A DNA stretch of 64,000 bases from Candidatus Proruminimicrobium quisquiliarum. GTDB lineage: Bacteria > Elusimicrobiota > Endomicrobiia > Endomicrobiales > Endomicrobiaceae. Both the position numbers and the translations under genes were made by a program. Positions 849 through 52,448 of this stretch are shown here, in pieces. Under the pieces are notes generated by a model, which saw only the letters and a list, made by a program, of their open reading frames with translations, made no database searches and was not told where the DNA came from. Numbering within the stretch: the first letter of the stretch is position 1; each line of letters opens with the position of its first letter. The stretch covers positions 1 through 64,000 of the forward strand of contig JAHDRN010000005.1 of assembly GCA_018433245.1 (NCBI GenBank), given 5' to 3'.

Positions 849-849
849 T

Positions 850-2653: not shown

Positions 2654-2669
2654 TAAAAACTCCGTCTAT

Positions 2670-2972: not shown

Positions 2973-2990
2973 GTTTAACCATCCTTTAAA

Positions 2991-3770: not shown

Positions 3771-3792
3771 TTTAAAAATCCTTTAACTCAAT

Positions 3793-6656: not shown

Positions 6657-7535
6657 TTAGAATTCCCTGCCCGTTATTTTTTCATAAGCTTCTATGTATT
6701 TCGCTCTGGTGTTGATTATAACGTCTTCAGGCAGAGACGGAACCGGAGGCTGTTTGTTCCATTTTATTTTTTCAAGATAATCTCTTACGTACTGTTTATC
6801 AAGACTGTCCTGGCTTACTCCTTCCTGATATTTTTCTTTTTCCCAAAACCTTGACGAGTCCGGAGTAAAAATTTCATCTATAAGAATAAGTTTGTCTTCG
6901 TAAATTCCGAATTCAAGTTTTGTATCTGCCAGTATTATGCCTCTGCTCAAGCAGAATTCGCTTACTTTTTTATAAAGAGTTATTGAAACTTCGCTTAACT
7001 GGGCAGCCAAATCATCGCCGATTCTTTTTGCCGTTTCTTCAAACGAAATATTTTCATCGTGTTTTCCGCCTTCCTCTTTGCTTGAAGGAGTAAAAATCGG
7101 TTCCGGAAGCTTTGAAGATTCTTTAAGCCCTGCAGGCAGTTTTATACCGCAGACAGTCTGTGATTTTTGATATTCTTTCCAGCCTGAACCCGCGAGATAC
7201 CCTCTTACTATACATTCAATATCTATTCTTTTTGCTTTTTTTACTATCATTGCTCTGTCTCTCAAAAAGTCATACTTTTTAAGTTCTTCCGGAAAATTTT
7301 TAAAATCTCCCGTTATGATATGATTCGGAATTATATTTTGAACATAATCAAACCAAAACATTGATAATTTATGCAGTATTCTTCCTTTATCGGGAATCAC
7401 AGAACCAAGCACATAGTCAAACGCCGAAATTCTGTCGGTAGCGACTATAAGAAAATCTTTCCCGTAATAGAAAACGTCCCTGACTTTGCCCTGATGAAAC
7501 AATTTTGCCTCTTCTATATCATTCGACCCTATCAT
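6657..7535 (-). CDS. purC: SAICAR synthetase
   Basis: 292 residues. The N-terminal GKVRDVFYYG and VATDRISAFD are classic PurC motifs, and CIVRGYLAGSGWKEY lies near the middle. This is the yeast-like long form rather than the ~240-residue E. coli type. It joins aspartate to CAIR. It is the first gene of the leftward purine operon. An AAGGAG ribosome site lies seven bases before the ATG, and a promoter (7575-7603) lies upstream. Confidence 0.96.
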   Translation of the reverse strand: MIGSNDIEEAKLFHQGKVRDVFYYGKDFLIVATDRISAFDYVLGSVIPDKGRILHKLSMFWFDYVQNIIPNHIITGDFKNFPEELKKYDFLRDRAMIVKKAKRIDIECIVRGYLAGSGWKEYQKSQTVCGIKLPAGLKESSKLPEPIFTPSSKEEGGKHDENISFEETAKRIGDDLAAQLSEVSITLYKKVSEFCLSRGIILADTKLEFGIYEDKLILIDEIFTPDSSRFWEKEKYQEGVSQDSLDKQYVRDYLEKIKWNKQPPVPSLPEDVIINTRAKYIEAYEKITGREF

Positions 7536-7574
7536 AAACGAACTCCTTTTTTTCTTACAATCTAAAGATGGTAT

Positions 7575-7603
7575 ATTTTAGTATTTTCGGGGCTTTCTGT
7601 AAA
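7575..7603 (-). promoter_or_regulatory. Candidate sigma70 promoter of the purine operon
   Basis: On the minus strand, TTTACA (7603-7598) and TAAAAT (7580-7575) are separated by exactly 17 bases. The predicted start near 7568 gives a leader of about 30 bases, too short for a riboswitch or attenuator. Confidence 0.55.
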
Positions 7604-7615
7604 GTAAGAATATAT

Positions 7616-7644
7616 TTGACAAATAAAATCTATTGTGGTACAAT
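7616..7644 (+). promoter_or_regulatory. Strong sigma70 promoter of tRNA-Asp
   Basis: Consensus TTGACA (7616-7621), 17-base spacer, TACAAT (7639-7644), with TG one base before the -10 (extended -10). The predicted start is about 12 bases before the mature tRNA end. It is divergent from the purine promoter. Confidence 0.85.
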
Positions 7645-7663
7645 TCTTCCCGTGTTACCTATT

Positions 7664-7742
7664 GGGGATGTGGTGTAGCCTGGTTTAACACACTGCCCTG
7701 TCAAGGCAGAGACCGCGGGTTCAAATCCCGTCGTCCCCGCCA
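7664..7742 (+). tRNA. tRNA-Asp (GTC)
   Basis: 79 bases including an encoded CCA. The acceptor GGGGATG pairs with CGTCCCC (one G-T wobble), the anticodon arm is CTGCC / loop CTGTCAA / GGCAG, and the T arm is GCGGG / CCCGT. Anticodon GTC at the loop centre. Confidence 0.95.
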
Positions 7743-7755
7743 GAAAATTATGTCA

Positions 7756-7790
7756 AGTCCAATTTTGAAGCAACAAATTGGACTTTTTTA
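7756..7790 (+). terminator. Intrinsic terminator after tRNA-Asp
   Basis: A perfect 10-bp stem (7756-7765 with 7775-7784), 9-base loop, then a T run. It ends only a few bases before the ATG of the next gene. Confidence 0.85.
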
Positions 7791-7797
7791 TTTGATT

Positions 7798-8577
7798 ATG
7801 AAATTTAATAAATATACCGATACCGCAGTTGAAAGCGCAAAAGCCGGAGCAAAAATCCTTTTAAAACACTTAAATAATCTTGAAAGTATAGAGTATAAAG
7901 GAAAAATAGATCCTGTAACGATTGCTGATAAACAATCTCAAAAAGCGATAATTTCAACGATTAAAAAATCTTTTCCCGACCATAATATAATAGCCGAAGA
8001 AAAAGATACTTTTAAGAAAACAGAATCGGATTACTGCTGGATTATAGATCCTCTTGACGGGACCGTAAATTTTGTGCACGGAGTTCCGTCTTTTTGTATT
8101 TCAATCGGCTTGATGCATAAAAAAGAAATCGTATCGGCCGTAATATATGCTCCGGCGTTAAATGAATTATTTGTCGCCGAAAAGGGAAAAGGAAGTTTCT
8201 TAAACGGCAAAAAGATACAAGTTTCAAAAATAAACAAAATGCTCAGAGCTCTGCCGGTAACCGGATTTCCTTATTATGCGCAGGAAAAACCGGATCGTGT
8301 TTTAAAAAATTTTAAAAATATAATGATGGTAACGCAGGGAATGAGAAGATTCGGATCGGCCGCAATAGATATGGCTTATGTAGCGTGCGGAAGATTTGAT
8401 TTTTTCTGGGAAGAAGGATTAAAACCGTGGGATGTTGCGGCCGGAATTTTAATCGTAAAAGAAGCCGGCGGAAAAATATCGGATTATAATAACAAAAATG
8501 ATTATCTTTTCGGACAGACTATGGTCGCTTCAAATAAACTGCTTCACGGACGGATAATAAAAATCCTCAACAAATGA
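7798..8577 (+). CDS. Inositol monophosphatase / SuhB-family phosphatase
   Basis: 259 residues. The metal-binding signatures are present: DPVTIADK and AEEK in the N-terminal half, DPLDGTVNF (motif 1) near 80-88, and PWDVAAG (motif 2) near 208. Family members dephosphorylate inositol-1-phosphate, fructose bisphosphate, NADP or PAP, and the substrate cannot be told from sequence. I start at the ATG at 7798, giving the family-typical VESAKAGAKILL beginning. The open frame runs further upstream through the tRNA, which is not credible as coding. There is no ribosome site before this ATG, and the tRNA terminator ends just upstream, so initiation is unusual. It overlaps nth by four bases. Confidence 0.88.
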   Translation: MKFNKYTDTAVESAKAGAKILLKHLNNLESIEYKGKIDPVTIADKQSQKAIISTIKKSFPDHNIIAEEKDTFKKTESDYCWIIDPLDGTVNFVHGVPSFCISIGLMHKKEIVSAVIYAPALNELFVAEKGKGSFLNGKKIQVSKINKMLRALPVTGFPYYAQEKPDRVLKNFKNIMMVTQGMRRFGSAAIDMAYVACGRFDFFWEEGLKPWDVAAGILIVKEAGGKISDYNNKNDYLFGQTMVASNKLLHGRIIKILNK

Positions 8578-9224
8578 ATAAAAAAATTAATCAAATAATC
8601 AAAATTTTAAATAAAGAATACGGAAACATAGGAATAGCTCTTAATTTTTCAAATGTTTTTGAACTTTTGGTCGCCACAATTCTGTCTGCCCAGTGCACGG
8701 ATAAAAGAGTAAACATAATTACATCCGAGTTATTTAAAAAATATAAAACAATAGAAGATTATGCAAAAGCAGATCTCGTTGAATTTCAAAATGACATAAA
8801 ATCGGCAGGTTTTTACAGAAACAAGGCCAAAAATATAATTTCAACCGCCAATAAAGTATTAGAGCATCATAAAGGAAAAGTTCCCGATACAATGGAAGAA
8901 CTCATAAAACTTAACGGAGTTGCAAGAAAAACGGCCAATATCGTATTGGGAAGCGGCTACGGAATAACCGCAGGAATTGCCGTTGACACTCATGTTATCA
9001 GACTTTCAAATCTTATAGGACTTTCAAAAAATACAGATCCCGTAAAGATAGAACAAGATCTCGTAAAAATAATACCTAAAAAATACTGGATAAAAATTTC
9101 ATTTTTAATACAAACTCTCGGACGAAGAATATGTAAAGCCAGAAAACCTTCCCATGAAATATGCCCCATAAAAAATTTATGCTTATTTTACGCAAAAAAC
9201 CGTAAAAAACGAAATATTGCCTAA
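8574..9224 (+). CDS. nth: Endonuclease III (DNA glycosylase/AP lyase) with a variant Fe-S ligand set
   Basis: 216 residues. Helix-hairpin-helix LNGVARKTANIVL carries the catalytic Lys, and AVDTHV carries the catalytic Asp. It removes oxidised pyrimidines in base excision repair. The C-terminal [4Fe-4S] loop normally reads C-x6-C-x2-C-x5-C. Here Cys187, Cys197 and Cys203 are present, but the second position is His194 (codon CAT at 9153-9155). The cluster may use a His ligand, be labile, or be absent. It is coupled to the upstream phosphatase gene by an ATGA overlap. Confidence 0.93.
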   Translation: MNKKINQIIKILNKEYGNIGIALNFSNVFELLVATILSAQCTDKRVNIITSELFKKYKTIEDYAKADLVEFQNDIKSAGFYRNKAKNIISTANKVLEHHKGKVPDTMEELIKLNGVARKTANIVLGSGYGITAGIAVDTHVIRLSNLIGLSKNTDPVKIEQDLVKIIPKKYWIKISFLIQTLGRRICKARKPSHEICPIKNLCLFYAKNRKKRNIA

Positions 9225-9245
9225 TATATTCAAACTTGCTATAAT
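9217..9245 (+). promoter_or_regulatory. Candidate promoter of the zinc-ribbon coiled-coil gene
   Basis: TTGCCT (9217-9222), 17-base spacer, TATAAT (9240-9245), about 40 bases before the ATG at 9285. The -10 is perfect and the -35 partial. Confidence 0.5.
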
Positions 9246-9284
9246 TTCGGGGTTAAAATCAATTTATGAATATGTGGAGACAGA

Positions 9285-9998
9285 ATGGAAAACTTAAAAG
9301 AAAATTTGCTGTTGCTGTGCGATTTGCAGGAGATTGACACGCGTATTGTTAACATGGAACAGAATCTTATTAATCTCCCGAAAAAAATAGAAGAAAAAAA
9401 ACGCGAAATTATTAATTTAAAAGCAGATTTTGAAAATAAAAAAGCCGAATATGTAAAATTGAATTCTCTTAAAAAAGAAAAAGAATCGGCGCTTGCGGCA
9501 AAAGAATCCGCAATAGCAAAACATACCGCGGATTTAAACACGGTAAAATCAAATGATCTTTATAAAACATGCCTTCTTGAAATAGAAAAATCAAAAGCGG
9601 ATAAAAGCAACATTGAAGACGAAATTCTCATTTTAATGGACGGCATTGAAAAAGAAATGTCAAATTTAAAAGAAAATGAAGAAACACTTAAAAAATCAGA
9701 ATCGGAAATCAACAATTCCGTTTCATTAATAGAACAGGACATTAAAAAAATTCAGACTGAAATTGACGTTTTAAAAAAAGAAAGAGAAGAATTTGCAAAG
9801 AAAATAAATTTGAACATTTTGTCTCAGTATGAAAGAATACGGGAAAACAGAAACGGACAGGGGCTTGCTCTTGTTGACGGAGACAGCTGCACCGGCTGCA
9901 ATATGGTATTAAGGCCTCAGCTTATAATGCAGGCTACAAAATGCACCGAAATTGTTTACTGCGACAACTGTTCAAGAATTTTATTTAATAAAAAATAA
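9285..9998 (+). CDS. Coiled-coil protein with C-terminal C4 zinc ribbon
   Basis: 237 residues. Residues ~10-180 are Lys/Glu-rich heptad sequence forming a long coiled coil. The C-terminal ~50 residues have two CxxC pairs (CTGC and CDNC) flanking RPQLIMQ, matching the widespread C4-type zinc-ribbon family seen in many bacterial phyla. Function is not established; nucleic-acid or protein scaffolding is suggested for relatives. It lies directly upstream of the RNase P RNA gene, an arrangement I have seen for this family elsewhere. Confidence 0.85.
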   Translation: MENLKENLLLLCDLQEIDTRIVNMEQNLINLPKKIEEKKREIINLKADFENKKAEYVKLNSLKKEKESALAAKESAIAKHTADLNTVKSNDLYKTCLLEIEKSKADKSNIEDEILILMDGIEKEMSNLKENEETLKKSESEINNSVSLIEQDIKKIQTEIDVLKKEREEFAKKINLNILSQYERIRENRNGQGLALVDGDSCTGCNMVLRPQLIMQATKCTEIVYCDNCSRILFNKK

Positions 9999-10007
9999 AA
10001 ATATAAT

Positions 10008-10331
10008 GCAGATACCGTATGGTCGCTTTACGCTTCGGGCGTAAAGAGGAAAGTCCGAACTTTACTCTCCTTACGGAGAAAAACGGTAGCGGGTAATCCC
10101 CGTCGTCCGCGAGGATAGAGGTGCGAACAGTGACGCTTTCTGCCGAAAGGCGGAAGGTTCCCTTTTAAGGGAAAATCCCGCTATAATGAAAACGGGAATG
10201 AAACGGCTAAATCCTTACCGGAAAGCAAGATAGAAGTTTTATCGCTTGACCGCATAAAGCAATTTATGCGGCAGAGAAATGACCATAGTGTTCGGAAACG
10301 AACATACAAAATTCGGTGTATAGGTATCTGC
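10008..10331 (+). ncRNA. rnpB: RNase P RNA (class A)
   Basis: Contains the universal core GAGGAAAGTCCGAAC near 10048 and the matching 3' core AGAAATGACCATAG near 10274, which form the P4/J regions. The ends pair as P1 (GCAGATACC at 10008-10016 with GGTATCTGC at 10323-10331). About 324 bases, slightly short for type A. It processes tRNA 5' ends with the RnpA protein. A TATAAT lies immediately upstream (10002-10007), so the true 5' end may be a few bases further in. Confidence 0.93.
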
Positions 10332-37459: not shown

Positions 37460-40400
37460 TTATGCCGACATTAACATTGTTTTGATATGTTTAATATCAA
37501 TATCGCCGCCTGCGGGAATTATACGTTCTTCGTCATCAATATAAGGGAACGGAAGTATTCCCATTTCCATTTCGCCTATTTTTGCGGTTACGGACAAATA
37601 TCCGTTGAATTTATCTCTGACAACCGAATCGGTATTTATTCTGTCAATTATCATTGAAAGAATAACGGCGGAATCTATCTTGCCGTCATATTTTGAATCT
37701 ATGCAGAAAACTGAAATATTACCGTCTGTTTTTTTGAGATAAACATGTATGGCTTCGTCTTGCTGAAGAGGATTTGCCATATTAAATAAGATTTCGCTTC
37801 CTGCCGGCATATCTTCAAATGATATCGCCGCCATTTGCTTGACTTCCTTTTCTTCAATAGCCGGAGTTATATCCGGTTTTGCCTGTACAGCGTCTTCAAG
37901 CGTAGTAATCGGTCTTCTCTGCAATATATAAATTTCACCATCTTTTATTCCGTATTCTATATCTACCGGATAGCCCGCATCCTTTTCAAGAACATTTACT
38001 ATATCCATTAATGTTTTTACAGTTTCTGCCGATAAAACTCTGTCTTTTGCACCTTCCGTTACGACTTCCTGGCTTGTTCCGTTGGCCGTAGCCACTATTT
38101 TTGAATATTTGTCTGCAACCGAATATTCAATAATCTCTCCGCTTGTAGTTTCAACTTCAACCGTATCCGGAGTAATTATGCCCGATACTATTCCTTCTCC
38201 GAGACCATAGACTCCTTCAATAATAGTATTGCCGTATTTATTTCTGCTGAATATAACTCCGGCTTTATCCACGTTTATCATTTCCTGTATTAAAACCGCA
38301 GGTTTAACAATCTGTCCGGTTTTTATCATATATTCAATACATCTGTCGGAATAAAAAGATTTCCAGCATTCCTGAATATTTTCAAAGACATCCGCGTAGG
38401 AGACGTTTAATTTTGTTTCTCCCATTCCGGCAAAAGCTTTATTTTCACTGTCTTCGCCGACTCCGGAAGACCTGACCGAATATCTTGCCCCTTGCCGTAA
38501 AGCCGATTTCATTTTACCTTCTATTACTTTTTGCATAAAAGTCTGTTTTTTATCTTTTGAACCATCTATAAGTTTTTGTATTTTTTTTGCAACCTGTTTT
38601 GCAGCCGTCTCATTTTTTGTTTTTACGGCAAGTTCAAAATCCGCGGTTAATTGTCTGTATTCTTCATTTTGTCCGGTCTCGCTGAAAAACATATAAAGAA
38701 CATTGGCACTTATACCTACTCCCGCCGGAACTTTTACTCCTTTTATTTTTGACAAAAGCCTGTAAATCAAGGCAAGTTCCGTAGTTTTGGAACCGAATCT
38801 GTAAGCGTCTCCGGCCGATATTTCGCTAAAACCGCATATTTCGGAATCTATGCTTATTTTCTTATTGGACTGATACTCCGTTACTATGTTTTCCAAAACC
38901 AAAACAAGATTCTTAATTTCGCTTCTTTTTTCCGCCAAGTCTTCTCTCTTTTCGCTTTCGGGAATAAAGTAACGGTATACGGATATCTGATGAAGCAGTT
39001 TGACAATATTTTCTATATCCGAAGCATTCAATTTCTTTTTTGAAGCAAGAGTTTTACCGGTTTCTATAATATCGGTAACATATTCCAGAAGACCGTCTTT
39101 TATTTTTTCCTGAGCCGATGCGACATCTTTTTTTAAAGCATTTATATCTTCTCTGTTTTCAATAGTTTTTATGTAATTAAGTTTATCGTTTAATCCCGTT
39201 ATAATCCCGTAACTTATATTTATATTGTCTATATTCTCCAAATTTTTAAGAGATTCGGATATATTTCTTACTTTGTTTTTGACGTAAACGACATTAAGTT
39301 CTTTTACTTTTTGCCTTACGGCTTCCGGCAATGAACTGTCAAATAAAACAAACATTATTTCTTCAAGTTCTTTATCGCCTATTGTCTGGAAATAAATATA
39401 TTCAACAAGTTTTCTTATGTTTTCGTTATCTTTATTTTCACCGAAGAATGTTTTTATTGCTTTGATATCCTTCGTTTCTATATACCTCTGCAATTGGTCA
39501 AGAAGACGCGGGGCAATGTCGTTAAACAAAAGAATCCGGCCCGTTTCTCCGTTGACAAGAACTTTTGTTCCTTCCTTAAGCATAACCGTATTTTCTTTTA
39601 CTTTTCTGACATTAAATCCTTTTATTTCTTCCGCCGCTTCTTCATAAGTGTAGTACTTTACCTCAACGCTTCCGTCATTCCATGAAGCGCCGTTAAGCAC
39701 AACCGAAGGTTTTTTTAATTCTCTGGTTGTTATCGCAGCGTGGCTAAGAGTACCGCCGCCGGTCGTTATAACCGCTTTTACCGATTCTATCGCCTTTACG
39801 TCATCCGGAACAGTGAATTTAACAAGCAGAATATCTCCTGAACCGGCGTTCTTTCTGTCAAAAGTAATATTACCGGCCACGTAAGTTCCTTTACCGTCGG
39901 ACGTTCCCGTGCACAAAACTTCAGGGCTGTCGGTATTTTGAATCTGGGCAGACAAGAAACTTTTTATTCTTTCTCTTTCTTTTGTCCCTATCAATTCCTG
40001 TTCTGATGAAATTTTATATCCTTCTCCGTTCAGCACCGCAGTAAGTTTGGCTTCCGTAAGTTTCTCGCGTCCGGCTGCGGATATAATTTCCGTCTGAGCG
40101 TATTTCAATCTTCTTGTGTAAGGATTCATCAGCCCCCTGACGGATAAAGTTTCTCCGTTAGATAATTTAACGTTGCCGGTAACAAACATCAGATTGCCTA
40201 TAAAACCTATTGTTTTAAAACTGAATTTTGATCTGCTTATGAGATTTATAATTCTGCTCTGTTTTAACGCATCGTATTCATCTTCCAAAATGGCATTAAC
40301 AAGCTGTTCTATAATATCATAATTAACATTCTTTACAAGATATCCGTTTTCATCAAAAGAGATACGCCCTTCACCATAAGCCTGTTCTATTGGTTTATTA

Positions 40401-43400
40401 AAATATTTATCAATGAAACTTTGGTCAAATTCATAATATCTTCTTGATCCGTCGTATGCTTTTTCAATACCGAGATACTCAAAAACTTCGTCAAATATTT
40501 GTTTTGCCGACGAAAAACTCGGTTTAGGAAATCTTTCCGTCATTGTATTGTCTCTGAATGCCGTTCTTCCGTTGGACACATAAGAGTATCCGTACCATAT
40601 TTCTCCCGCCATAAATTTATCTACAAGTTTAGCCAATGTTTCCAGATAAGAACCTTCCGAATATCTGTCGGCCAATTCTTCAAGTTCCATATCAAGATTA
40701 GTCGAATGTTTATACAATAAAACCGCTCTGGCAGCTATTTCCGCGATATCTGTTTCCTCATTTAATCCGAAATCTTTATTCAATACGGCCTTCAGTCCGC
40801 ATGTTCCGGGTTTTTTATCTGAAAAATCTTCTTCCGTATCGGAAACGACATCAAATCCGAGCCTTGTCAAAACTTGGCTGAAATAACGTACTCTCTCCGC
40901 ATACCCGGATTTTCTTCCGTTTTCATTGTAATAAATAGAAATCCCTCTGTCTTTTTCTCCGAAATTTATAAAAATATCAACGCTGTGAGCAAATAATCTT
41001 GTCGTCCATACAAGAATGTCGTCTCTAAAAACAAAATCGTCAATGCTTACCCTGTCTGATGCCAGTCTTGTAAGAAAACTTTGTATATCTCTGTTCATTT
41101 TTCCGGAATCGGACAAATCATACGCTAAAATTGAAGTATTATCGCGTATAAATCTTGACGTGCGAATATCTCCTTTATCCATACCGCTTATACTTTTAAC
41201 TTTTTGTTTAAAATCAAGAATGCTCGTTTGATGTATGGCGTTTATCAAAGTGTGAATCTCTTCAATAGAGGATATAGAATCTTCATTCCATTTGGAAAGA
41301 GCAGCCTGTTTTTTTATCGTACCCGGGTCAATATCCCCGTTAGGAATTGAACTCAGTATTTTTTCAAGAGCCGCTTCGGCGGCAGCGCCGTGTTCTGAAT
41401 TAATTTTTTTCAATATCTGTATCATTCTGGCTACAATTTCAACGGTTTTATCAAAATCTTTTCTTGCAGAACGGTCATTTAATTTTTTCATCCTTTCAAG
41501 CACGATTACGTTATATTTGAGAATGTCCTGCAAACTGTCAAAATCTTCGGTCATTGCCGCAACTTCTTTATTTTTTTTATTTACACGGCCTCTGTTTTCC
41601 ATGAAAACAGGAGATTTGGATTTGAGTTTCTCTTTTGCAATGAGAGATTTCGGAAGTCTGGATACCAGCGGAGTAAAATCAAAATTTTCCGCATACGATT
41701 CGCCGTATCCCGTTCGTCCGTAAATATTTTCAAAGTATACGGTTGATTCCTGTAATAAAGCATCAATATTTAAATCGGCGTATATCTTGTTGATTTTTGC
41801 TATATTTAAAACTTTATCGTCGTTAAATTCCTGATACGATAATGAGGCGGTACGGCCCAATGTAATCGCGGCAGTTTTACGCGTTTCAATATCGGCATCA
41901 GGATTTTCGGCAATTTCAAATAAGTTTTTTATTAAAGCCAAAGCTATTTTCTCGCCGTTAACACCCGATAAATAAAGTCTCAAACATAATTTTTCAAATA
42001 TAAGGTTATTTATAGATTTAAGTATTAATTCCGTCATTTTTTTTGAATAAACGATTTTTTCGTCATTCGGCAGATAAGGAACTGCCGATTTGCCCGATTT
42101 ATTTAATGCTTCTATAAACACAGCAAAAGTCTGTTCATTAAACCCGAGTTCATCAAACAAATATCTGTAAACTCCAATATTATCCGGAACATTTTCGGCA
42201 AGTTTTCTGAAAATATTTAATATCTCATTTTCTGTTTTTATATATTCTTGGCTGTTTTTATCATATTTTTTTACGGAATTATGCATCATAACAGCCATCT
42301 TGCATATATATTCGCAAACTCTGTCATTTGTTCTTGCGCCGTCTTTAAAATTCGACGCTTTTGCGACAAATAATAAATATGACATAACAGTATTAAAAGC
42401 GTCTGTCATATTTTTAGAATACAATTTATTGGACAACAAGGATAATTCTCTGAGAGTTTTTTCGTTAACCATTTTTGTTTTTAAAACTATTTGTTCGCAA
42501 ACCGGCATAACGGCTTTGATAATTTCTGCCGATTCATCTGTTTCTCCGGATTCTGCAAGCCTGTCCGTTAAAGCGATTAATTCCTGTATCTGGCTGTCGG
42601 CTATTTGGGCGGTTGAAGGATTTATAACGTCGTACAATGAATTTAAATTTCTAACTGCCGATTCTTTTTTATTATTTAATTCTTCATCCTGCAGTTTGAT
42701 ATCTTTTAACATCTCAATTGTTTTCAGAAGTCCTTTAAGCATATCACGGTCAACGCCCGGACTTGCAAACGATAAATAATAATCTCTCAAATCATTATAT
42801 TCTTTTATAATATCTCTGAGTCCCCATGGCATTTCTTTGTTATCTATAAAATTGAGTTCATATAATACTTTTGTTATTTCAAGCGCATTTTTTTTGTCTG
42901 TTGAATATGCAACTTCAAATATCTTTATCGCGGCAGATCTCAAATTTGAATATTGGTTATTTGCCCACATATCCGAATATAACGGTGCGCTTGCGCTTAT
43001 TTTTTCTTTTTCAATTTTTAACATATCGGCAAATTCAGACACCAATAATCTGCCGGTTTGAGGATTTCTTACAACGGTGGCCAAAGGTACAAGCTGTAAA
43101 AAATAAGAATCTTTAGGACCGCCAAATATCGCTTGTAATTTTATTAACTGTTCAAAAATAATATTATTCTTTTCTTGCGCCGGAGTTTCAGGCGTAATTT
43201 TTGATAAAATGTCAATAATTTCTGAAATATCATTTTGAAATCTGTATACCTTTATATTTTTCAAATAATTTATCAAATCAAGAATTATTGCCGTATCAAA
43301 ATCAGGGAAATTTTCAGGGTCTTTCAATAAAGAATCAGGCGCAAAGTTATCTTCAAAAATACGGTTAATTAAAGCCGTAACCTTAATTTTAAGTTCGTAA

Positions 43401-46400
43401 CCGGCGTATGGATCGGGCAATTCCTCGGAAACAAGGCTTGGAGCAAGTTCCTCAAATGTTATAATTTTTTCTTCAGAAACTCCCATTTTTATCAATGCGG
43501 TCTTATGTCTTTTTCCGGCAGCTATGAAATAATCCGATTTTAAATGTTCAAGGGTAAGATTGGAAGACCTGAAACTTTTTATAATATCATCCGGAACTCC
43601 GTATTTTTCTAATTCGGCGACATATTCCGGTTTTAAAGACGCACCCAAATGAGACGAGTCCGTGTATGTTCCGGCCGATATGGCTTTTATATTAGTTTTA
43701 CCGTTTTTTATCATCAATGATTTGAACAACATTTCCGCAACGGGACTGCGGTCCGTATTTCCGCTGCATACAAAGCATATAGTTTTTGAATTATTTTCAA
43801 GAATATCTTTTTTAAGGCGTTTTATCTTTTCAACGGCGCGAGTTCTTTCTTGTTCGCCGTCTTTTAAAATTTCGGCGGCAGGTTTTTTTATTTTGCCCTC
43901 AAGAGCAAATTTATTGTATACGGCGTGCGTCACCGTAGCGACAATCAAAGCGGCAAAATTAATCCAAAAAAACGGAAGTATTGAAGATAAACAAACATAT
44001 ACTAAAACATAAAATCCCGTAAACAAAACGGAAGGGACAACAAAGCTTTTCCAGTCTCTTATTTGAGTCTGCGGTGATTTTTTAGCCGTGATTTTATCTG
44101 CAAGCGTGTGTGCGTATGAAAACGCAAATACTGACACCGCAGCGGTTATTGCAATCGGAACTGCGGACAAAGGATTTGCCGCTATAATACCCAAAGCAAA
44201 GAAAGGAATAAATCTGAATATCAGCTCCTCAATCGCAGGTACGGCAAAAACCGTTATATTTCTGTAAAGTTTATCACTTTTGATTTTTATCTTTCTTAAA
44301 AATGAATCAGCAACTGACTGAACCGTTAAAACAGCTTCTTCAAGCTCACGTTTTGCTTCGGATTCGTTTATTTTACCGTTAAAAGCCGTATCAGCCCTTC
44401 TCTGAAGTATAAATATATTGTCTTTTGAATCAATTGCAAATTCAACGTCAATCGGATAACCGACTTCCTGTCTCAAAGCATATACAATATCAACCATTTT
44501 CCTTATATTGCTTTCATCCGTTATTCTGTTAATTTTTTCTTTATTTTCAAGTTTTTCAATCTGAATGCCGCCGTGAGGCAGAGCTATTATTTTCTTCTTA
44601 TTCTGCAACGCCCTTCTGTATTCTATTCTGCCGTCTCTGTGAAATACCTTAATTCTGTCAGGATCTATTTTTCCGCTTGCAAGTCCCTCGCCTACTCCGC
44701 GCACTATTTCCATATTGAAATCGCCGTTGGCGTCAGAACTGAATATTACTCCGGCGCTTTTAATATTTTCAACAAATTCCTGAACAAGAACCGCAGGCTT
44801 CACAAATTGTCCGCTTTTGAGCATATATTTAATTGTTTCCTGTTCAAAAAATGATTCCCATACCTCTTTAATATCGGCGTATATATTTTCTTTGTCGCGG
44901 TTTAATTTAGTCTTAGCCATTCCGGCAAACGAATAGTTTGCTCCGTCTTCTCCTATCCCCGAAGACCTGACAGCATATCTTTTTCCGTATTTCAGTTTAC
45001 CGAGATTATCAATATATCCTTTTAATTTTGGGCTGTGCGAATCTTTTATCATTTGAGAAATGATGCCGGCTATTTCTGCGGCTCTTTCAAATTTTGACAT
45101 GTCTTTAGTTTTTATTATGCCGCTTAACTCGGACATCAGAGTTTTAAATTCGTCCAATCTGCCGGCATCTTTAAAAAATATATCCAAAACACCGCTGCTT
45201 ATTCCAAGACCGGCAAGTATTCCGAAATTCCTTCCTGAATTGTTTATCTTGGCAAGTTCAGTTGTTTTTGAACCGAACTTAAATTTATCGTCAGATCCTA
45301 TTTCATCAAAACTCTTTATTTCTTCACTAAGTTCCAAATTCTCCGATACGGCGGAAAAATTATTGCGTATTTTTTCGTCAAGAGCATCCGTTAATTCTTT
45401 TATTCCTTTGTATCCGTAAAAATATTTCCAATACTTTGCCATTTCAACAAGTTTAACGGCAATATCCATATCTCTGCCGGTCAAGCCGCTTTTTTTAAGC
45501 AGTTTATCCGCCGTGTTTTTGAACCCTTCTATATACCGGACGTATTCGGCAAGTATTTCTCTCTTTTTGCCGGCAATTTTGACTTTCAGCTCTTTAACTG
45601 CCGGATTCGCTTTTCTTAAAACTATACTATTGATTTGTTTTTCGGTCGATTTAATCAGCACATACGCTTCTTTAATATCTTCCGTATTTCCGGCGTTGTC
45701 AAACATATTCTGTATCTCTTTAACTTTATTGAGCACATACACAATATTTAATTCGTCTATCTTTTCTCCTATTTTATCGTCATATTCCCATGCGACAAGC
45801 ATACGGAGAATTTCTTTCAATTTCTGGGTTCCCGCAGACTGATAATAAACATATTCTACAAGCTTTCCTATGTTAGGGTCTGATTCGTTGGCTTTTAAAT
45901 AATTTTTTACTCCCTGCACGTCGGAAGCATCTATCATCTTCTGCAATGCATCAAGCCGGCTTTTATTTATTTCATTAAATAAAAGCATTTCTCCTGTTTC
46001 CGGATTTATCAGAACAACGTCTCCCGCTTTTATTCTTACGGTATGTTCTACTGTTTCCCTTATGAAAAATCCGCCTTCGTTGACTACATCTCCCTTATAG
46101 GTGTAGTATCTTAACTCTATTTCATTGTCAGACCATTTACTCTGCAATAAAACAGCAGGTTTATTTTTTTCTCTGGCAACAATGCTGGCATGGCTGTAAA
46201 TTCCGCCGCTTGTAATACAGAATCCGGCAGGGATATCCATTTTTTCAACGCTTTCTTTCATAATCTGCTGCGCTATCCATATACTGTCATGTTTAAGATT
46301 ATTTTCATCATATTCAACTTTTCCGATTACGCTTCCGCCCGTTCCGACAGATAGCCCAATCGCTTTAGCCGTAGGAGTTTCTTTCATAAACGGAGGCTGT

Positions 46401-49400
46401 TCATGAAGAGTGTTTATCGTTTTCTTTTTTTCGGAACCGCTCCTTTCGGCCTGTCTTTCAACTTCGTATCCGTTTTCCTGAAGAATTTGAAGAAGTTCAT
46501 CGTAGTTTAACTCTGTTCTGTTTCCGTATACATCTACATATTCCACAAATGCGCACTGCATTCTCTCTCTTTCAGCGTCAACAACTGCTTTTACGGAAAG
46601 CCAGCCTTCGTACAATTTTATCACTCCGGATTTGGCTATCATACCGCCTATATAACCTTCCGTTCTAAAATTGATTTTTGAATAATCCAAAAGATTTAGA
46701 AGCTGCGCCTGTTTGAAAGACTCATCTCTCTCCCATTCATTTCCGTTTATTATGTCAACTATTTTGGAGGTCGGTCTGTATTTTGCATTAATCTCCAGAA
46801 AACCCGTCTCAGGATTTTTTATTATTTTTCCTTCCACATACATTCTTTCAACATTTTCAATATTTCTGTCGATTCCTTTAAGACCGAAATAATCGTATAC
46901 GGCATTGAATATATCTTTTCCGGTCTTATCTTCTTCATAATAAGAATCATTTAAATCCAGCCCCGTTTGCATTGTTTGTTTCTGTTTTTCATAATCTCTG
47001 ATTACGCTTTCGGGAATCCGGCGGCTGTTTTTTAATACTCTGAAATCTTCAAGCGTCAACTGCGGAATAGCAAATTGATGGTAAAAATTCTTGTCATTAT
47101 CATATTCAAGACCCTGCAGACGAAAATCCAAATCTTTCGTGTCTTCTACTATAGAAAATGCTCTTTTAAAATATTCGGCGTAGAATTCTCCCTTTCTCAG
47201 CGATTCTGAATTCCCGCTTGCCCAAACTGCTTTAAATTCACATAATCCGAGCAATGATTCATTATAATCGGAAACTCTATTGTCAAAACTGGTTATGTCA
47301 AAACCAGCTGTCGCAAATGCTAATGAAAGCATCGTTGTTCTCATAGCGTTGCCGTCGCTTCTGCCGGAATCATAAAATGCGCAAACTATGCTGTCTTCAG
47401 TATTGTCAAAATCCACAAATATTGAAACACTGTGCGCTCCGAGCTTTTTATTGTATAGTATTTTTCCGTCACTTATATAAAGAATCCCGCTTTGTTTTGA
47501 CTCTGCGAGCTTTGCCAGAAAATCCTTTACTTCCGTACGCATTTCTTTTTTAGAAAAATCATATACTTTAAGATAATTTGTAGCAGGATTTACAATAACT
47601 TCCTTTGCACTGTCTTTTTTTATTTCATCGTCTATAAGACTCATAAAAACAGATATTGAAGTCTGATGTACCGCATTAATAAGAGTATGCACAGTATCTA
47701 TTTCTTCAATTTTACCGGCAGTCCATAATTTAAGTTTGTTCTGCAACGTTACATTTTCAGAAGCAAGTCCTCTCTTCATTCGTTCCTTTATTTTATCAAG
47801 AGATTTCTGTGAATCTTCGCCGTATTTATTATATTGAGTATCAAATTTTTTCAAGCCGTCTATCATTCTCTGCAAAAATAAAATTGAATCCAAAAGAGAA
47901 TCTTCATTTCCCCTGTTAAGTTCTGATAATGCAAGGATGTTGTTTTCAAGAATAGCATTAAAAATTTCAAATTTATTTTCGGACTGAACATCGCGGACGG
48001 GAGCTTGTATTTCATGTTTTTTTGTTCTGAAATAAGTTGCCGGAGCTGAAAAACTTTTTATTTTTTCGGTCACGGTGTCCGGAAGCATATTTTGTAACAT
48101 TCTCAAATAATCAGACTTATAAAAAACTCTGTCGTATATAGATATTTTTTCGTTTATTTCCTCATAGGGGATTCCTATAGCATCATAAAACAACTCAAGT
48201 CCCGCATAAGTTTTTATTACATCCGACCAACCGTACGGTATTCTTGAATAAGCCTTATCCCTTCTCATCTCATCGCTGAAAAGTTTTATATTTATTAAAC
48301 GTTTTTCCTGCATTTGTTTCAGCAAAGATAATCCTAATTCGCGATTTATTAAAAAAATACGCGACGATATTTTCAGAAGAAAATCTGTTTTGTTGATTGA
48401 AACAAGAGAACTAGAACTGTATGATTCTTTTTTATCCGCAAGGCAGATTTCAAATATGTAATTAAAGACTGTCAGGGCGAGAGATTCATCTTTAGATGTA
48501 TTTTTTACTAACAAAATAACCGGAATCAAAGCATTAAATATATTTACGTCTGCGTCATGTTTCATAAATTCATTTATAAGATAGTTAACCTGCTCGTCAA
48601 TAATTTTGTATTTTTCTTCAGCCGGGAGTTTTGAGGCGTTTTTTAAAACCGCCACGGTTTTTTCTACAAGACCTTTAATATTTTCATTTTGTTTATAAAA
48701 AGATGTTGTTTGAATGTACTGCAATCTTGAAATTACGTCGTTTAAAGAAAAATTAAAATCAGAAGCATTCCCGTTTTTGACAAAATAATCTGTTTCATTC
48801 TCAGTCAAAACAGGTTCGTCTTTCTCTGTTATAATAATTCCCATACCGTCTTGCGAAATGGCAGTATAAAAGAATTTTGCAAGCTCAAAGCCCGTAATGC
48901 TTCTTAAGGTCGGAAGGTCATTTCTGAAAAAACCTGCTTTGTATGCTTCTCTCAAAACAAATGCCGCTCTTTCAGGATGTCCTGCATATAAACTGTCTGT
49001 CAAATTAAGCAGTCTTATACTATCGGAAACTATAAACATCTTTTTTTGTATTAAGGCATAATCTATTATTTTATCAAACAGAAGGTTTCCGCTCTCGTCT
49101 TTGACATATAGAGAATCCATATAAAATATATTCATTACTGATTTCGCCAAAAGCATCGGACCGCTGAATTCCTCTCCGTTCCCTTTTTCCGCACATGCAA
49201 CCATTATGTCATAGAGATAATTCATTTGTTTGGAATACAAATCATATTTTTCGGCATCCGAAAGTTCATAAGCATTTGACAAATCAGCTCTCATCTTTTT
49301 AATCTGCTCCGTCATGCTTAGTTCGGAACCTTCCATCTTTGGACCATAATTTCTCATCGCATAATCCTGATTTTTGATTATAGAATCCAGATTATCTATA

Positions 49401-51883
49401 AGATTTCCTATTTTTTCATTGACATTTATTTCTTGGGTAATAAAAAGTTTGTCAAAAACGCTTGATATTTCCAATTTGGCCGTTTTTAATACTGCCGACG
49501 GAATTTTTCGCAAATTAATAAAATTTCTTGAAATAAGAATCGCAGAATTATAAACGGCATGAGCTAAAAAAGATGCTGCAAAACCTGCAAGAGGAACCGC
49601 CGGAAAAAGCGCCGATGCCGTAACGTATATAGCCGTAAAAACAAGCGAAGGCAGAATAAAATCTTTAAAATTTCTTGTTTTAGAACCGGACTTTAAAAAT
49701 AATTTATCGGCAATAACGTGGACAAAAGGAAACGCCGCAAGACTCGCAACTGCGGTAACGGCAAATGCGGCTGCGGGAACAGGCAAAATTGCGGCAAGGC
49801 TGCCGGTTATCGCAAAAGGAATAAATCTGAAAACAAATTCTTCCCATACCGGCGCGATTACCGTTGTATACAGTCCATACCAAAATGTTTTTATATTTTT
49901 AAATATATTATTAAATATTGACTGTACGGATTGCCCATTGGGCGATGTTTCCCGGATTTCTTTTTTTTCAATATTACGAAAACGCGGCAACAGAGATTTT
50001 CCGTCAAAATTATATTCTTCGTTATATGTTTTAATCTCAGTGTCAGAAGCATCGGTATATACAGCTGTTATTTTTGCTTTATCTTTTTCAAATTCTTCAA
50101 TTCTCCAATCTACGGAAACTTTGTCGTTATAATTTCGTGATTTTAAAGCCTCGTCAACAACTTCCCGTATCAACTGTTTTTGTTTTTCGGGATTCAATTT
50201 TAAGAAATCAGGCAGTTCATTGACGGCCGCCAACGCTCTGAACAGTATTTCCGGAAATAAAACGCTTGTCCATGTTTCCGTAAGAGGCTTTGCGTTAATC
50301 GTATTGTCAAGAACCTGTCTGTATCCTCTTATGGTATTCCAATGAATCTCGCCTGCGCGGCTTATGTCTTTTGTTATTTTCGGAGTTATCTGTATATAAG
50401 ATATTTGTCTTTCTTTCGCTATTTCTTCCAATCCGCGGCTGTGGAATCCGCCTGTTACTATAACCTTTATTTTCTTACCGTTAATCTCATCGCGTAATTT
50501 TATAATTGCTTCCTGCCCGTAAGCCGCGTTAATATTTGCGGCGTTATTTTCATACGGCAGTATTTTATCGGCGAATACTCTGTCTCTTTCTATATTATTG
50601 TAATGGTATTTTGCAAGAAGCCGTTCATATTTATCCAACTGTCTGCTTGTATTCTCAGGGAAATAAGAATTCCATATAATTCTGAACTTTTTAAAATCTT
50701 CACTGAACCGCAAATAATCGTCTGCCGTTATATTCGCTCCAAAATATTCTTTTATAACAGGAATAAATTCATATAAAAAGGTAACTTCGCGTTCATATTT
50801 ATTTTTGCTTAATTGCGCATACAATCTGTTTAAAAGCTGTTTCTCTTCCTCAACAAATACGATTAAATTTACGTTTTTATTAAATTCAAGATATGTAAAA
50901 AAATCTTTAAGCTGCGCAAATTTGCCGTTTTCAAAAATTTTATTCTTATCCGCTATATTTTTCAATTCCGAAACTATATTCTCTATATCCTGAAAATTAT
51001 TGCTTGTTTGGGCCAATTCGGAATATTTTCCGTATTCTATATTTGATTTTAATACGTTTACAAAAGTTTTAAACTGTTTTGACACTTTATCAAGATTTAA
51101 ATTTTTAGATTGCGCCAAAAGGTTCATATAAGTTTTTACATTTTCAAATTCGTTTAAATTGACGCCTCCTTTTTCGGCTAGTTTTGATAATTTATCGTAA
51201 TATTTATTTGCGCTTATTTTATTGGATTTATATCTTTTCACCAATTTATTTAATCTGTCAGTATCTCTGTTAAAGTAAGCTTTTCTTACGGGTTCTATTT
51301 CATTCTGCATTCGCGTGCATATTTCGTTTATTTCCGGCTGCAAATCTATTATTTCATTAAGCAGTTTTATGTTTTCTTCATAAATATTTTTATCTTCTAT
51401 GCCTTTTATAATGCAGTCTTTGTTATTTATTGCCGAATAATATTCAACGCCTCCAAGCTGTCCTGATTCAACCAAATCTTCTATCATCTGCCTGCCTAAC
51501 TCGTTCTCTTCCAGGCGGCTGAGCCATTTTGTATCAACAGTCCCGTATGCTCCTTCCAAAAACAGCTCGCTCAATTTATATTTGCCGTCCAAATAACTTA
51601 TTATTTTTGCGATATTTCTCTGAGTTTGCGGATGGCTGTGCAAATCCTGAATGTTTATTATAATCTCGCTGCTGCCGAAATCAACAGCTTTTGTAACAAG
51701 ACCGATTGAAGGCAGAGTTAAAAAAGCCCTGGAATTTTCTATTGACTGTTTTTCATTACCGTAAATGACCGCAGCCTGGGAGATATCCGCAAATACGCCC
51801 GTAAATATGAAACACATCACGGTAAATACGGCCGTAAATTTTATCATGATACTTTTATTCAGTTTATTGAATGTTCGTTCCAT
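37460..51883 (-). CDS. Giant multidomain envelope protein: two CPBP + phosphohistidine + ATP-grasp (dikinase-like) units
   Basis: 4,807 residues in one uninterrupted frame, ATG at 51883 with GGGAG upstream. Order: signal/anchor helix (about 15-37); Tiki/ChaN-like domain (QDLHSHPQTQ at 79-88 to GGFHSRG near 481); CPBP (CAAX-type) membrane domain with E681/E682, H722, H775; long helical region; phosphohistidine swivel domain (His1898); PPDK-type ATP-grasp domain (~2190-2500, VRSSGIGED with R2306); second CPBP (E2552/E2553, H2592, H2653); LMW tyrosine phosphatase (Cys2706, Arg2712, D2824 in DPY); helical region; second swivel domain (His4048); second ATP-grasp (~4353-4660, R4471); short tail. 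There is no PEP-binding barrel. His domain before ATP-grasp is the glucan-water-dikinase order. Substrate unknown. Functions of the linkers are not recognised. Confidence 0.85.
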   Translation of the reverse strand: MERTFNKLNKSIMIKFTAVFTVMCFIFTGVFADISQAAVIYGNEKQSIENSRAFLTLPSIGLVTKAVDFGSSEIIINIQDLHSHPQTQRNIAKIISYLDGKYKLSELFLEGAYGTVDTKWLSRLEENELGRQMIEDLVESGQLGGVEYYSAINNKDCIIKGIEDKNIYEENIKLLNEIIDLQPEINEICTRMQNEIEPVRKAYFNRDTDRLNKLVKRYKSNKISANKYYDKLSKLAEKGGVNLNEFENVKTYMNLLAQSKNLNLDKVSKQFKTFVNVLKSNIEYGKYSELAQTSNNFQDIENIVSELKNIADKNKIFENGKFAQLKDFFTYLEFNKNVNLIVFVEEEKQLLNRLYAQLSKNKYEREVTFLYEFIPVIKEYFGANITADDYLRFSEDFKKFRIIWNSYFPENTSRQLDKYERLLAKYHYNNIERDRVFADKILPYENNAANINAAYGQEAIIKLRDEINGKKIKVIVTGGFHSRGLEEIAKERQISYIQITPKITKDISRAGEIHWNTIRGYRQVLDNTINAKPLTETWTSVLFPEILFRALAAVNELPDFLKLNPEKQKQLIREVVDEALKSRNYNDKVSVDWRIEEFEKDKAKITAVYTDASDTEIKTYNEEYNFDGKSLLPRFRNIEKKEIRETSPNGQSVQSIFNNIFKNIKTFWYGLYTTVIAPVWEEFVFRFIPFAITGSLAAILPVPAAAFAVTAVASLAAFPFVHVIADKLFLKSGSKTRNFKDFILPSLVFTAIYVTASALFPAVPLAGFAASFLAHAVYNSAILISRNFINLRKIPSAVLKTAKLEISSVFDKLFITQEINVNEKIGNLIDNLDSIIKNQDYAMRNYGPKMEGSELSMTEQIKKMRADLSNAYELSDAEKYDLYSKQMNYLYDIMVACAEKGNGEEFSGPMLLAKSVMNIFYMDSLYVKDESGNLLFDKIIDYALIQKKMFIVSDSIRLLNLTDSLYAGHPERAAFVLREAYKAGFFRNDLPTLRSITGFELAKFFYTAISQDGMGIIITEKDEPVLTENETDYFVKNGNASDFNFSLNDVISRLQYIQTTSFYKQNENIKGLVEKTVAVLKNASKLPAEEKYKIIDEQVNYLINEFMKHDADVNIFNALIPVILLVKNTSKDESLALTVFNYIFEICLADKKESYSSSSLVSINKTDFLLKISSRIFLINRELGLSLLKQMQEKRLINIKLFSDEMRRDKAYSRIPYGWSDVIKTYAGLELFYDAIGIPYEEINEKISIYDRVFYKSDYLRMLQNMLPDTVTEKIKSFSAPATYFRTKKHEIQAPVRDVQSENKFEIFNAILENNILALSELNRGNEDSLLDSILFLQRMIDGLKKFDTQYNKYGEDSQKSLDKIKERMKRGLASENVTLQNKLKLWTAGKIEEIDTVHTLINAVHQTSISVFMSLIDDEIKKDSAKEVIVNPATNYLKVYDFSKKEMRTEVKDFLAKLAESKQSGILYISDGKILYNKKLGAHSVSIFVDFDNTEDSIVCAFYDSGRSDGNAMRTTMLSLAFATAGFDITSFDNRVSDYNESLLGLCEFKAVWASGNSESLRKGEFYAEYFKRAFSIVEDTKDLDFRLQGLEYDNDKNFYHQFAIPQLTLEDFRVLKNSRRIPESVIRDYEKQKQTMQTGLDLNDSYYEEDKTGKDIFNAVYDYFGLKGIDRNIENVERMYVEGKIIKNPETGFLEINAKYRPTSKIVDIINGNEWERDESFKQAQLLNLLDYSKINFRTEGYIGGMIAKSGVIKLYEGWLSVKAVVDAERERMQCAFVEYVDVYGNRTELNYDELLQILQENGYEVERQAERSGSEKKKTINTLHEQPPFMKETPTAKAIGLSVGTGGSVIGKVEYDENNLKHDSIWIAQQIMKESVEKMDIPAGFCITSGGIYSHASIVAREKNKPAVLLQSKWSDNEIELRYYTYKGDVVNEGGFFIRETVEHTVRIKAGDVVLINPETGEMLLFNEINKSRLDALQKMIDASDVQGVKNYLKANESDPNIGKLVEYVYYQSAGTQKLKEILRMLVAWEYDDKIGEKIDELNIVYVLNKVKEIQNMFDNAGNTEDIKEAYVLIKSTEKQINSIVLRKANPAVKELKVKIAGKKREILAEYVRYIEGFKNTADKLLKKSGLTGRDMDIAVKLVEMAKYWKYFYGYKGIKELTDALDEKIRNNFSAVSENLELSEEIKSFDEIGSDDKFKFGSKTTELAKINNSGRNFGILAGLGISSGVLDIFFKDAGRLDEFKTLMSELSGIIKTKDMSKFERAAEIAGIISQMIKDSHSPKLKGYIDNLGKLKYGKRYAVRSSGIGEDGANYSFAGMAKTKLNRDKENIYADIKEVWESFFEQETIKYMLKSGQFVKPAVLVQEFVENIKSAGVIFSSDANGDFNMEIVRGVGEGLASGKIDPDRIKVFHRDGRIEYRRALQNKKKIIALPHGGIQIEKLENKEKINRITDESNIRKMVDIVYALRQEVGYPIDVEFAIDSKDNIFILQRRADTAFNGKINESEAKRELEEAVLTVQSVADSFLRKIKIKSDKLYRNITVFAVPAIEELIFRFIPFFALGIIAANPLSAVPIAITAAVSVFAFSYAHTLADKITAKKSPQTQIRDWKSFVVPSVLFTGFYVLVYVCLSSILPFFWINFAALIVATVTHAVYNKFALEGKIKKPAAEILKDGEQERTRAVEKIKRLKKDILENNSKTICFVCSGNTDRSPVAEMLFKSLMIKNGKTNIKAISAGTYTDSSHLGASLKPEYVAELEKYGVPDDIIKSFRSSNLTLEHLKSDYFIAAGKRHKTALIKMGVSEEKIITFEELAPSLVSEELPDPYAGYELKIKVTALINRIFEDNFAPDSLLKDPENFPDFDTAIILDLINYLKNIKVYRFQNDISEIIDILSKITPETPAQEKNNIIFEQLIKLQAIFGGPKDSYFLQLVPLATVVRNPQTGRLLVSEFADMLKIEKEKISASAPLYSDMWANNQYSNLRSAAIKIFEVAYSTDKKNALEITKVLYELNFIDNKEMPWGLRDIIKEYNDLRDYYLSFASPGVDRDMLKGLLKTIEMLKDIKLQDEELNNKKESAVRNLNSLYDVINPSTAQIADSQIQELIALTDRLAESGETDESAEIIKAVMPVCEQIVLKTKMVNEKTLRELSLLSNKLYSKNMTDAFNTVMSYLLFVAKASNFKDGARTNDRVCEYICKMAVMMHNSVKKYDKNSQEYIKTENEILNIFRKLAENVPDNIGVYRYLFDELGFNEQTFAVFIEALNKSGKSAVPYLPNDEKIVYSKKMTELILKSINNLIFEKLCLRLYLSGVNGEKIALALIKNLFEIAENPDADIETRKTAAITLGRTASLSYQEFNDDKVLNIAKINKIYADLNIDALLQESTVYFENIYGRTGYGESYAENFDFTPLVSRLPKSLIAKEKLKSKSPVFMENRGRVNKKNKEVAAMTEDFDSLQDILKYNVIVLERMKKLNDRSARKDFDKTVEIVARMIQILKKINSEHGAAAEAALEKILSSIPNGDIDPGTIKKQAALSKWNEDSISSIEEIHTLINAIHQTSILDFKQKVKSISGMDKGDIRTSRFIRDNTSILAYDLSDSGKMNRDIQSFLTRLASDRVSIDDFVFRDDILVWTTRLFAHSVDIFINFGEKDRGISIYYNENGRKSGYAERVRYFSQVLTRLGFDVVSDTEEDFSDKKPGTCGLKAVLNKDFGLNEETDIAEIAARAVLLYKHSTNLDMELEELADRYSEGSYLETLAKLVDKFMAGEIWYGYSYVSNGRTAFRDNTMTERFPKPSFSSAKQIFDEVFEYLGIEKAYDGSRRYYEFDQSFIDKYFNKPIEQAYGEGRISFDENGYLVKNVNYDIIEQLVNAILEDEYDALKQSRIINLISRSKFSFKTIGFIGNLMFVTGNVKLSNGETLSVRGLMNPYTRRLKYAQTEIISAAGREKLTEAKLTAVLNGEGYKISSEQELIGTKERERIKSFLSAQIQNTDSPEVLCTGTSDGKGTYVAGNITFDRKNAGSGDILLVKFTVPDDVKAIESVKAVITTGGGTLSHAAITTRELKKPSVVLNGASWNDGSVEVKYYTYEEAAEEIKGFNVRKVKENTVMLKEGTKVLVNGETGRILLFNDIAPRLLDQLQRYIETKDIKAIKTFFGENKDNENIRKLVEYIYFQTIGDKELEEIMFVLFDSSLPEAVRQKVKELNVVYVKNKVRNISESLKNLENIDNINISYGIITGLNDKLNYIKTIENREDINALKKDVASAQEKIKDGLLEYVTDIIETGKTLASKKKLNASDIENIVKLLHQISVYRYFIPESEKREDLAEKRSEIKNLVLVLENIVTEYQSNKKISIDSEICGFSEISAGDAYRFGSKTTELALIYRLLSKIKGVKVPAGVGISANVLYMFFSETGQNEEYRQLTADFELAVKTKNETAAKQVAKKIQKLIDGSKDKKQTFMQKVIEGKMKSALRQGARYSVRSSGVGEDSENKAFAGMGETKLNVSYADVFENIQECWKSFYSDRCIEYMIKTGQIVKPAVLIQEMINVDKAGVIFSRNKYGNTIIEGVYGLGEGIVSGIITPDTVEVETTSGEIIEYSVADKYSKIVATANGTSQEVVTEGAKDRVLSAETVKTLMDIVNVLEKDAGYPVDIEYGIKDGEIYILQRRPITTLEDAVQAKPDITPAIEEKEVKQMAAISFEDMPAGSEILFNMANPLQQDEAIHVYLKKTDGNISVFCIDSKYDGKIDSAVILSMIIDRINTDSVVRDKFNGYLSVTAKIGEMEMGILPFPYIDDEERIIPAGGDIDIKHIKTMLMSA

Positions 51884-51898
51884 TTCAACTCCCAAAGA

Positions 51899-51926
51899 AA
51901 AAACCCGCTTAATATTCAGCGGGTTT
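51899..51926 (-). terminator. Intrinsic terminator between the small membrane-protein gene and the giant gene
   Basis: Perfect 10-bp stem AAAACCCGCT / AGCGGGTTTT with an 8-base loop that contains the upstream gene's stop codon. In the minus direction it is followed by TTTTTTC and, within ~10 bases, by the giant gene's ribosome site. Confidence 0.8.
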
Positions 51927-52448
51927 TAACAATAAATATATTCTCGTAATTTTATTATTAATAAAATCATACGCATTTTTTACCGAAGTAAAAAACAACA
52001 GCATAAGCATAAAATAAAAAATAAAAAACGCGCACGTTCGGTGTTTATCAACAACTTTTAAATTAACAGCCGGCACGGCGTCATTTAAAATGCCTATAAA
52101 AATTTGAGATTTTAAAAATTTAAAGTCTCGGTCAAAATGCGGCTGCACAATACCGTCGTTTGCATGTTTCTTGCCGGTTTGTTCAGCCCCGGAAGCGTCG
52201 TTTTGTCCGGCGTCCTTTTGAGAGATTACCTTTCCTACTATATCCAATCCTATTTTCCCTACTGCGTCAGATATAAAAAAAACCGTAGCAAAAATATCTT
52301 TTTGTATTACGGAAACCTGATTAAGTTTAATTGCGTCATTTACCGTAACGGCCGAAAAAATAACATTTAAAACAACGGTAAATGTTATAAAACAGCTTAA
52401 CATTCCGGTAAAAAAACCGCTTGAAAGTCTGCGCTCAAAAAATACCAT
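51909..52448 (-). CDS. Small two-TM protein of unknown function
   Basis: 179 residues from the ATG at 52448 (AGGA seven bases upstream); the longer frame upstream lacks a ribosome site. One hydrophobic helix near 12-37 and another near 140-160, with a ~100-residue polar loop rich in Asp, Gln and Lys between. I do not recognise a family. The stop is inside the terminator hairpin, directly upstream of the giant gene, so the two may be functionally linked. Confidence 0.6.
   Translation of the reverse strand: MVFFERRLSSGFFTGMLSCFITFTVVLNVIFSAVTVNDAIKLNQVSVIQKDIFATVFFISDAVGKIGLDIVGKVISQKDAGQNDASGAEQTGKKHANDGIVQPHFDRDFKFLKSQIFIGILNDAVPAVNLKVVDKHRTCAFFIFYFMLMLLFFTSVKNAYDFINNKITRIYLLLKPAEY

Follow-up and report, generated by a model that had tools for sequence, protein, structure and literature searches.

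Is a bacterial open frame of 4,807 residues, carrying two dikinase units of reversed domain order, a genuine gene, and what might its product do? The frame lies in a 64,000-nucleotide stretch of DNA (the window) from an uncultured gut-type bacterium of the phylum Elusimicrobiota. The initial annotation of the window had described a single frame at 37460..51883; we recovered this frame and assigned it to the minus strand, with an ATG start and a GGGAG ribosome-binding site. Comparison with a same-genus relative gave dN/dS ratios of 0.145 over the N-terminal portion and 0.156 for the sequence from aa 2503 onward, approximate values because dS is near 1.5, which indicate that the gene is under purifying selection. 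Relatives in independent assemblies, together with dN/dS of about 0.15, ruled out an assembly artefact or a chance open frame. A phage or plasmid origin was also rejected, since searches of viral contigs, phages and plasmids returned no relative of the dikinase unit or of MID, the domain at its front.

Duplicated dikinase units and the MID domain

Pfam identified five families in all in the chain, including two copies each of PPDK_N (6e-96), PEP-utilizers (1e-21) and Rce1-like/CPBP (1e-5, which passes the curated cut-off), and one LMWPc domain at aa 2702-2829 (6e-13). The domain search proposed with the initial annotation thus found both the CPBP and the PPDK-type ATP-grasp domains. Its inventory of two CPBP, two phosphohistidine and two ATP-grasp domains stood, but it had overlooked the low-molecular-weight (LMW) phosphatase. 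Each copy is laid out as a CPBP-like module, a helical region, MID, a phosphohistidine domain (PHD) and a PPDK-type ATP-grasp domain. Helical region 1 (aa 816-1247; 48143..49438, minus strand, as are all features below) is weakly conserved; helical region 2 spans aa 2840-3385 (41729..43366). Internal alignment of aa 1248-2518 with aa 3386-4676 (30% identity, E=1e-150) bore out the annotated duplication and its spacing of ~2,150 residues, and the CPBP copies aligned as well (aa 644-813 with aa 2512-2687, E=4e-21).

PHD 1 (aa 1810-1973; 45965..46456) was identified by Pfam, residue conservation and a structure model matching the PPDK carrier domain 2fm4 (TM 0.73), and PHD 2 (aa 3961-4124; 39512..40003) by Pfam and residue conservation. 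ATP-grasp domains 1 (aa 2185-2509; 44357..45331) and 2 (aa 4345-4669; 37877..38851), found by Pfam and supported by residue conservation, align to the solved ATP-grasp domains of rifampin phosphotransferase and PEP synthase. His1898 and His4048, as well as R2306 and R4471, were located exactly where they had been annotated, and a residue check agreed that both active sites are intact: the catalytic K, R, E, Q and R of the PPDK-type ATP-grasp/phosphohistidine superfamily are present, together with the swivelling-domain His.

The order of these domains sets the chain apart. PEP synthase, PPDK and rifampin phosphotransferase have homologous ATP-grasp and phosphohistidine domains and share catalytic residues with the giant, but they put ATP-grasp first, whereas the His domain comes first in both of its units, as had been claimed. 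Also in line with the annotation, no PEP barrel was found among the Pfam families of the chain, unlike the order ATP-grasp, His, PEP-binding TIM barrel of PEP synthase and PPDK. PEP synthase was rejected as an identity on the basis of this order, the missing barrel and NCBIfam scores far below equivalog cut-offs. The genome's own ordinary PPDK (887 residues) has ATP-grasp followed by His, the usual order, and so do the PPDKs of relatives when read with the same profiles.

The initial annotation had described this one gene. The follow-up it had proposed, a search for homologues and their taxonomic spread, recovered relatives across several families of Elusimicrobiota: the gene is no isolated oddity but belongs to a phylum-wide giant family. 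The unit was matched in 16/41 genomes searched, own genome counted and some of them matched weakly, via ordinary PPDK. With rebuilt profiles, the three domains of the unit (MID, PHD, ATP-grasp) turned up in about 30 giant ORFs of Elusimicrobiota. These span several classes and belong to Endomicrobiaceae, to another family of its order and to three families from other parts of the phylum. The order MID, PHD, ATP-grasp was kept in every unit found; in one ORF (L184) a phosphatase is inserted between PHD and ATP-grasp, with the order otherwise unchanged. The phospho-acceptor His is present in all units (41/41). Among readable units, the ATP-grasp domain has its K, R, E-D, G and E in 40/40 and its Q and R in 39/39; some units of the 6,700-aa relatives vary at secondary positions.

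The same-genus relative has one unit; its sequence corresponds to aa 1-813 of the window's giant followed by aa 2503-4807, so that unit 1 is missing. In a tree, unit 1 sequences clustered together across genera, and unit 2 sequences likewise. This clustering points to an old duplication and makes loss of unit 1 from the relative the most likely history.

MID comprises ~500 residues ahead of PHD (MID 1, aa 1300-1809, 46457..47986; MID 2, aa 3440-3960, 40004..41566) and contains an HQT motif, an AHS-type His and an Arg, all three invariant. Neither Pfam nor a sequence search of the PDB returned a match for MID, and a fold search gave no convincing match to this part, the matches returned being PPDK-type. 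Among 150 phylum genomes, MID was confined to giant ORFs. Since every unit has MID in the same place, and given its conservation, we infer that it may be the acceptor-side domain.

Membrane modules, phosphatase and the giant family

CPBP-like module 1 (aa 655-790; 49514..49921) was supported by Pfam, by its motifs and by a structure model with four membrane-type helices, in agreement with the four predicted membrane helices; module 2 (aa 2532-2668; 43880..44290) was supported by Pfam, the duplication and its motifs. Both copies have the motifs of the CPBP/type II CAAX protease family (Rce1-like), EExxxR, FxxxH and HxxxN, as do most but not all copies of relatives, and CPBP modules also occur in giants without dikinases. 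Unlike the Rce1-like family, the modules are embedded in a giant chain, and several relatives have lost the catalytic glutamates. Because of this loss, "intramembrane protease", as the modules had been annotated, applies here as the name of a fold that Pfam and motifs do support, while protease activity is only putative. The number of K/R per module was 2.8 before it, 0.0 in loop 1, 6.6 in loop 2, 0.1 in loop 3 and 4.5 after it, so that both module ends are predicted to lie inside. This prediction would conflict with a signal peptide exporting the head, unless another crossing exists.

The LMW phosphatase (aa 2702-2829; 43397..43780) has both its CX5R loop (CSGNTDRS) and its DP aspartate (LPDPY) intact. 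It lies between the units in the window, before a single unit in one relative (L040), between PHD and ATP-grasp in L184 and elsewhere in the chain in another (L051); in L187 five copies follow the unit in tandem. In relatives, catalytic residues are gone from some copies of the phosphatase. The recurrence of this domain alongside dikinases supports a putative linked function. The L187 arrangement, a dikinase unit and then five tandem LMW phosphatase domains, occupies a 3,152-aa frame (630-10085).

The N-terminus had been annotated as an envelope anchor. It looks instead like a signal peptide (aa 1-37, ...DISQA|A; 51773..51883, by hydropathy), followed by a head of ~460 residues (aa 60-520; 50324..51706) with QDLH...EG...GGFH motifs. 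Of the 86 family members whose N-terminus could be read, 85 have such a hydrophobic core. A head profile run over the genome collection matched 269 loci in chains of about 1,500-12,000 aa; among the matches listed (80/269 head loci), all were Elusimicrobiota-type, and the closest of those listed was the Endomicrobiaceae MAG STB_19, of the same genus, with 75% head identity, which suggests that the source of the window is an uncultured Endomicrobiaceae bacterium. Of 150 phylum genomes, 43 have the head, and the frames that carry it reach about 12,000 aa; the source genome has about nine head-bearing giants. Pfam gave no match for the window head, a direct profile comparison of head with ChaN was not significant, and a fold search of the head returned no significant match. 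A distant family head (L205) matched both the head profile (6.6e-34) and PF04187, at 27.8 against a cut-off of 27.7 bits; a ChaN/Tiki-like fold is probable only. A search with PF05139 (erythromycin esterase) yielded no member among 100 phylum genomes. In the viral set, a 17-kb contig (L210, IMG/VR) encodes a head-like protein of 22% identity and is possibly a mislabelled bacterial sequence. In genus g7, many small genomes are without the head family and some copies contain stop codons, which suggests loss during genome reduction.

Between head and tail, other giants carry a SecA-like domain with seven GA modules, or HD, lipase, glycosyltransferase, APH-like or LPD3 domains. The SecA DEAD-like domain with seven GA modules belongs to a giant of the same genome (L152, 724-10410). 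A 12,027-aa member (L047-L048, G026:C12) has one dikinase unit and also lipase_3, glycosyltransferase, APH-like and 2H-phosphoesterase-like domains.

The C-terminal tail (aa 4690-4807; 37463..37816) ends in the family motif MLMSA-COOH. Endings in AA, SA or AS were found in 31/35 complete head ORFs and in 12/337 controls (Fisher 4e-31, a value that overstates the strength, since relatives are not independent samples). The ending L-x-[AS]-[AS]-COOH (e.g., 37463-37477) is common to giants whatever their cargo. Tail-specific proteases recognise non-polar C-termini; the giants' shared C-terminus resembles such recognition ends, and the genome has one S41 peptidase.

Proposed chemistry and alternative readings

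Our preferred reading, to which we give a probability of roughly 0.6, is that the units are working dikinases whose His is charged from ATP and passes its phosphate to a substrate held by MID, with the phosphatase tuning the outcome and the head and tail placing the chain. ATP bound by each ATP-grasp domain would donate phosphate to the His of the swivelling domain just before it (His1898 or His4048), the same transfer that PPDK, PEP synthase and rifampin phosphotransferase carry out. Homology provides a sound basis for the chemistry as far as phosphorylation of the His. The charged His would then hand its phosphate to a substrate held by MID, which would stand in for the usual acceptor domain, and the embedded LMW phosphatase may remove or tune the phosphate. 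Head and C-terminal motif, being common to the giant family, would serve delivery or placement separately from the enzyme cargo. Topology counts against this reading: a signal peptide would export the head to surroundings poor in ATP, while the loop charges of the CPBP modules predict that both their ends lie inside.

The initial annotation had compared the order of the domains with plant glucan-water dikinase (GWD), whose catalytic His is His992 and whose nucleotide-binding domain is C-terminal (PMC12892837, PMC5575247). If the units were a bacterial GWD counterpart, their substrate would be a polysaccharide, located at the surface of the cell or within it. GWD and PWD do share with the giant a His domain ahead of a C-terminal PPDK-type ATP-grasp and the lack of a PEP barrel, and glycosyltransferase domains occur in another family member. 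The parallel holds for domain order but not beyond it: Pfam finds neither CBM45 nor CBM20 nor any further carbohydrate module, hence no starch-binding module; MID replaces the plant N-terminal part and turned up, in the phylum genomes, viral contigs, phages and plasmids searched, only in giant ORFs of Elusimicrobiota; and the giant is bacterial, duplicated and fused to a head, CPBP modules and a phosphatase. A common domain order says nothing about the acceptor, and we consider a polysaccharide kinase of this kind quite unlikely. We regard as doubtful a second possibility, that the chain exits the cell and its cargo acts in a neighbouring bacterium or protist supplied with ATP, the CPBP-like module aiding membrane crossing. 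The signal peptide-like start of 85/86 members would fit such a secreted effector, as would a constant head and tail around variable, mostly cytosol-type cargo (SecA-like, HD, lipase, GT, APH, phosphatase, LPD3), the CPBP modules of dikinase-free giants, and the suggestion in PMC11573180 that huge proteins of such phyla relate to host association. It is countered by the conserved CPBP motifs, which exceed the needs of a hydrophobic hairpin, by the many small g7 genomes without the family, and by a variable part that is central, not C-terminal; no secretion apparatus or immunity gene was identified. A polymorphic toxin does not fit, the C-terminus being the conserved part and the variable part central; the neighbouring genes that were scanned include no recognisable immunity gene.

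Catalytic residues lost from some relatives' CPBP and LMWPc copies could also mean that the enzyme domains are inactive relics, reused to build up a protein of the surface or envelope. The dikinase catalytic residues are, however, almost fully kept, in both units and phylum-wide, which makes a mere scaffold highly improbable. Returning to working dikinases, the gene holds a genuine, conserved and probably functional new arrangement of known dikinase domains, in an apparently undescribed giant family. The initial annotation had thought the combination of domains undescribed, and no description of this architecture appeared in the literature covered, which comprised mostly open-access papers and no preprints. 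Huge proteins are reported as frequent in Elusimicrobiota, with no functional assignment (PMC11573180); these and the giants of Omnitrophota (PMC11573180, PMC10066038) are likewise very long ORFs of the same or related phyla. In the parts of these two papers available, Omnitrophota giants are discussed mainly as adhesins or surface proteins, and the shared head, tail and dikinase cargo are not described for Elusimicrobiota. The main text of an Endomicrobia genome paper is without giant proteins or dikinases (PMC11257099).

We tentatively suggest that the family could be an Elusimicrobiota-specific platform, in which a constant head and C-terminal tag, often with the leader hairpin described below, hold swappable enzyme cargo and the chains reach 12,000 residues. 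One cargo would be a dikinase of a new type that has an acceptor domain of its own and an LMW phosphatase as partner. The family gives many huge Elusimicrobiota proteins common parts (head, C-terminal motif and leader hairpin), and the dikinase cargo contributes a domain arrangement new for bacteria, as far as the literature covered goes, and a new candidate acceptor domain. A phosphatase beside a dikinase suggests reversible phosphorylation of some target; were the platform real, the two would form a reversible phosphorylation module inside one chain.

Gene neighbourhood and leader hairpin

Immediately upstream of the giant lies a gene for a 179-aa protein with two hydrophobic segments (51909..52448, minus strand). 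Its homologues precede dikinase-type giants in several other genera, two of the matches lying on truncated contigs, and were not found before other giants. The genes downstream are housekeeping (YchF, FAD synthetase).

A terminator-like hairpin with a T-run (51898..51927, minus strand) sits directly before the giant's ribosome-binding site and ends 14 nt ahead of the start codon; Rfam found nothing significant at this hairpin. Antitermination by a NusG paralogue was not supported as its reason, every genome with a match having exactly one NusG. Terminator-like leader hairpins were detected for 40/83 giants and for 7/363 other ORFs (Fisher 1e-26, again from relatives that are not independent samples). 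In the giants' leaders (L034-L193), the hairpins mostly lie right before the ribosome-binding site, and their stem sequences differ between genera.
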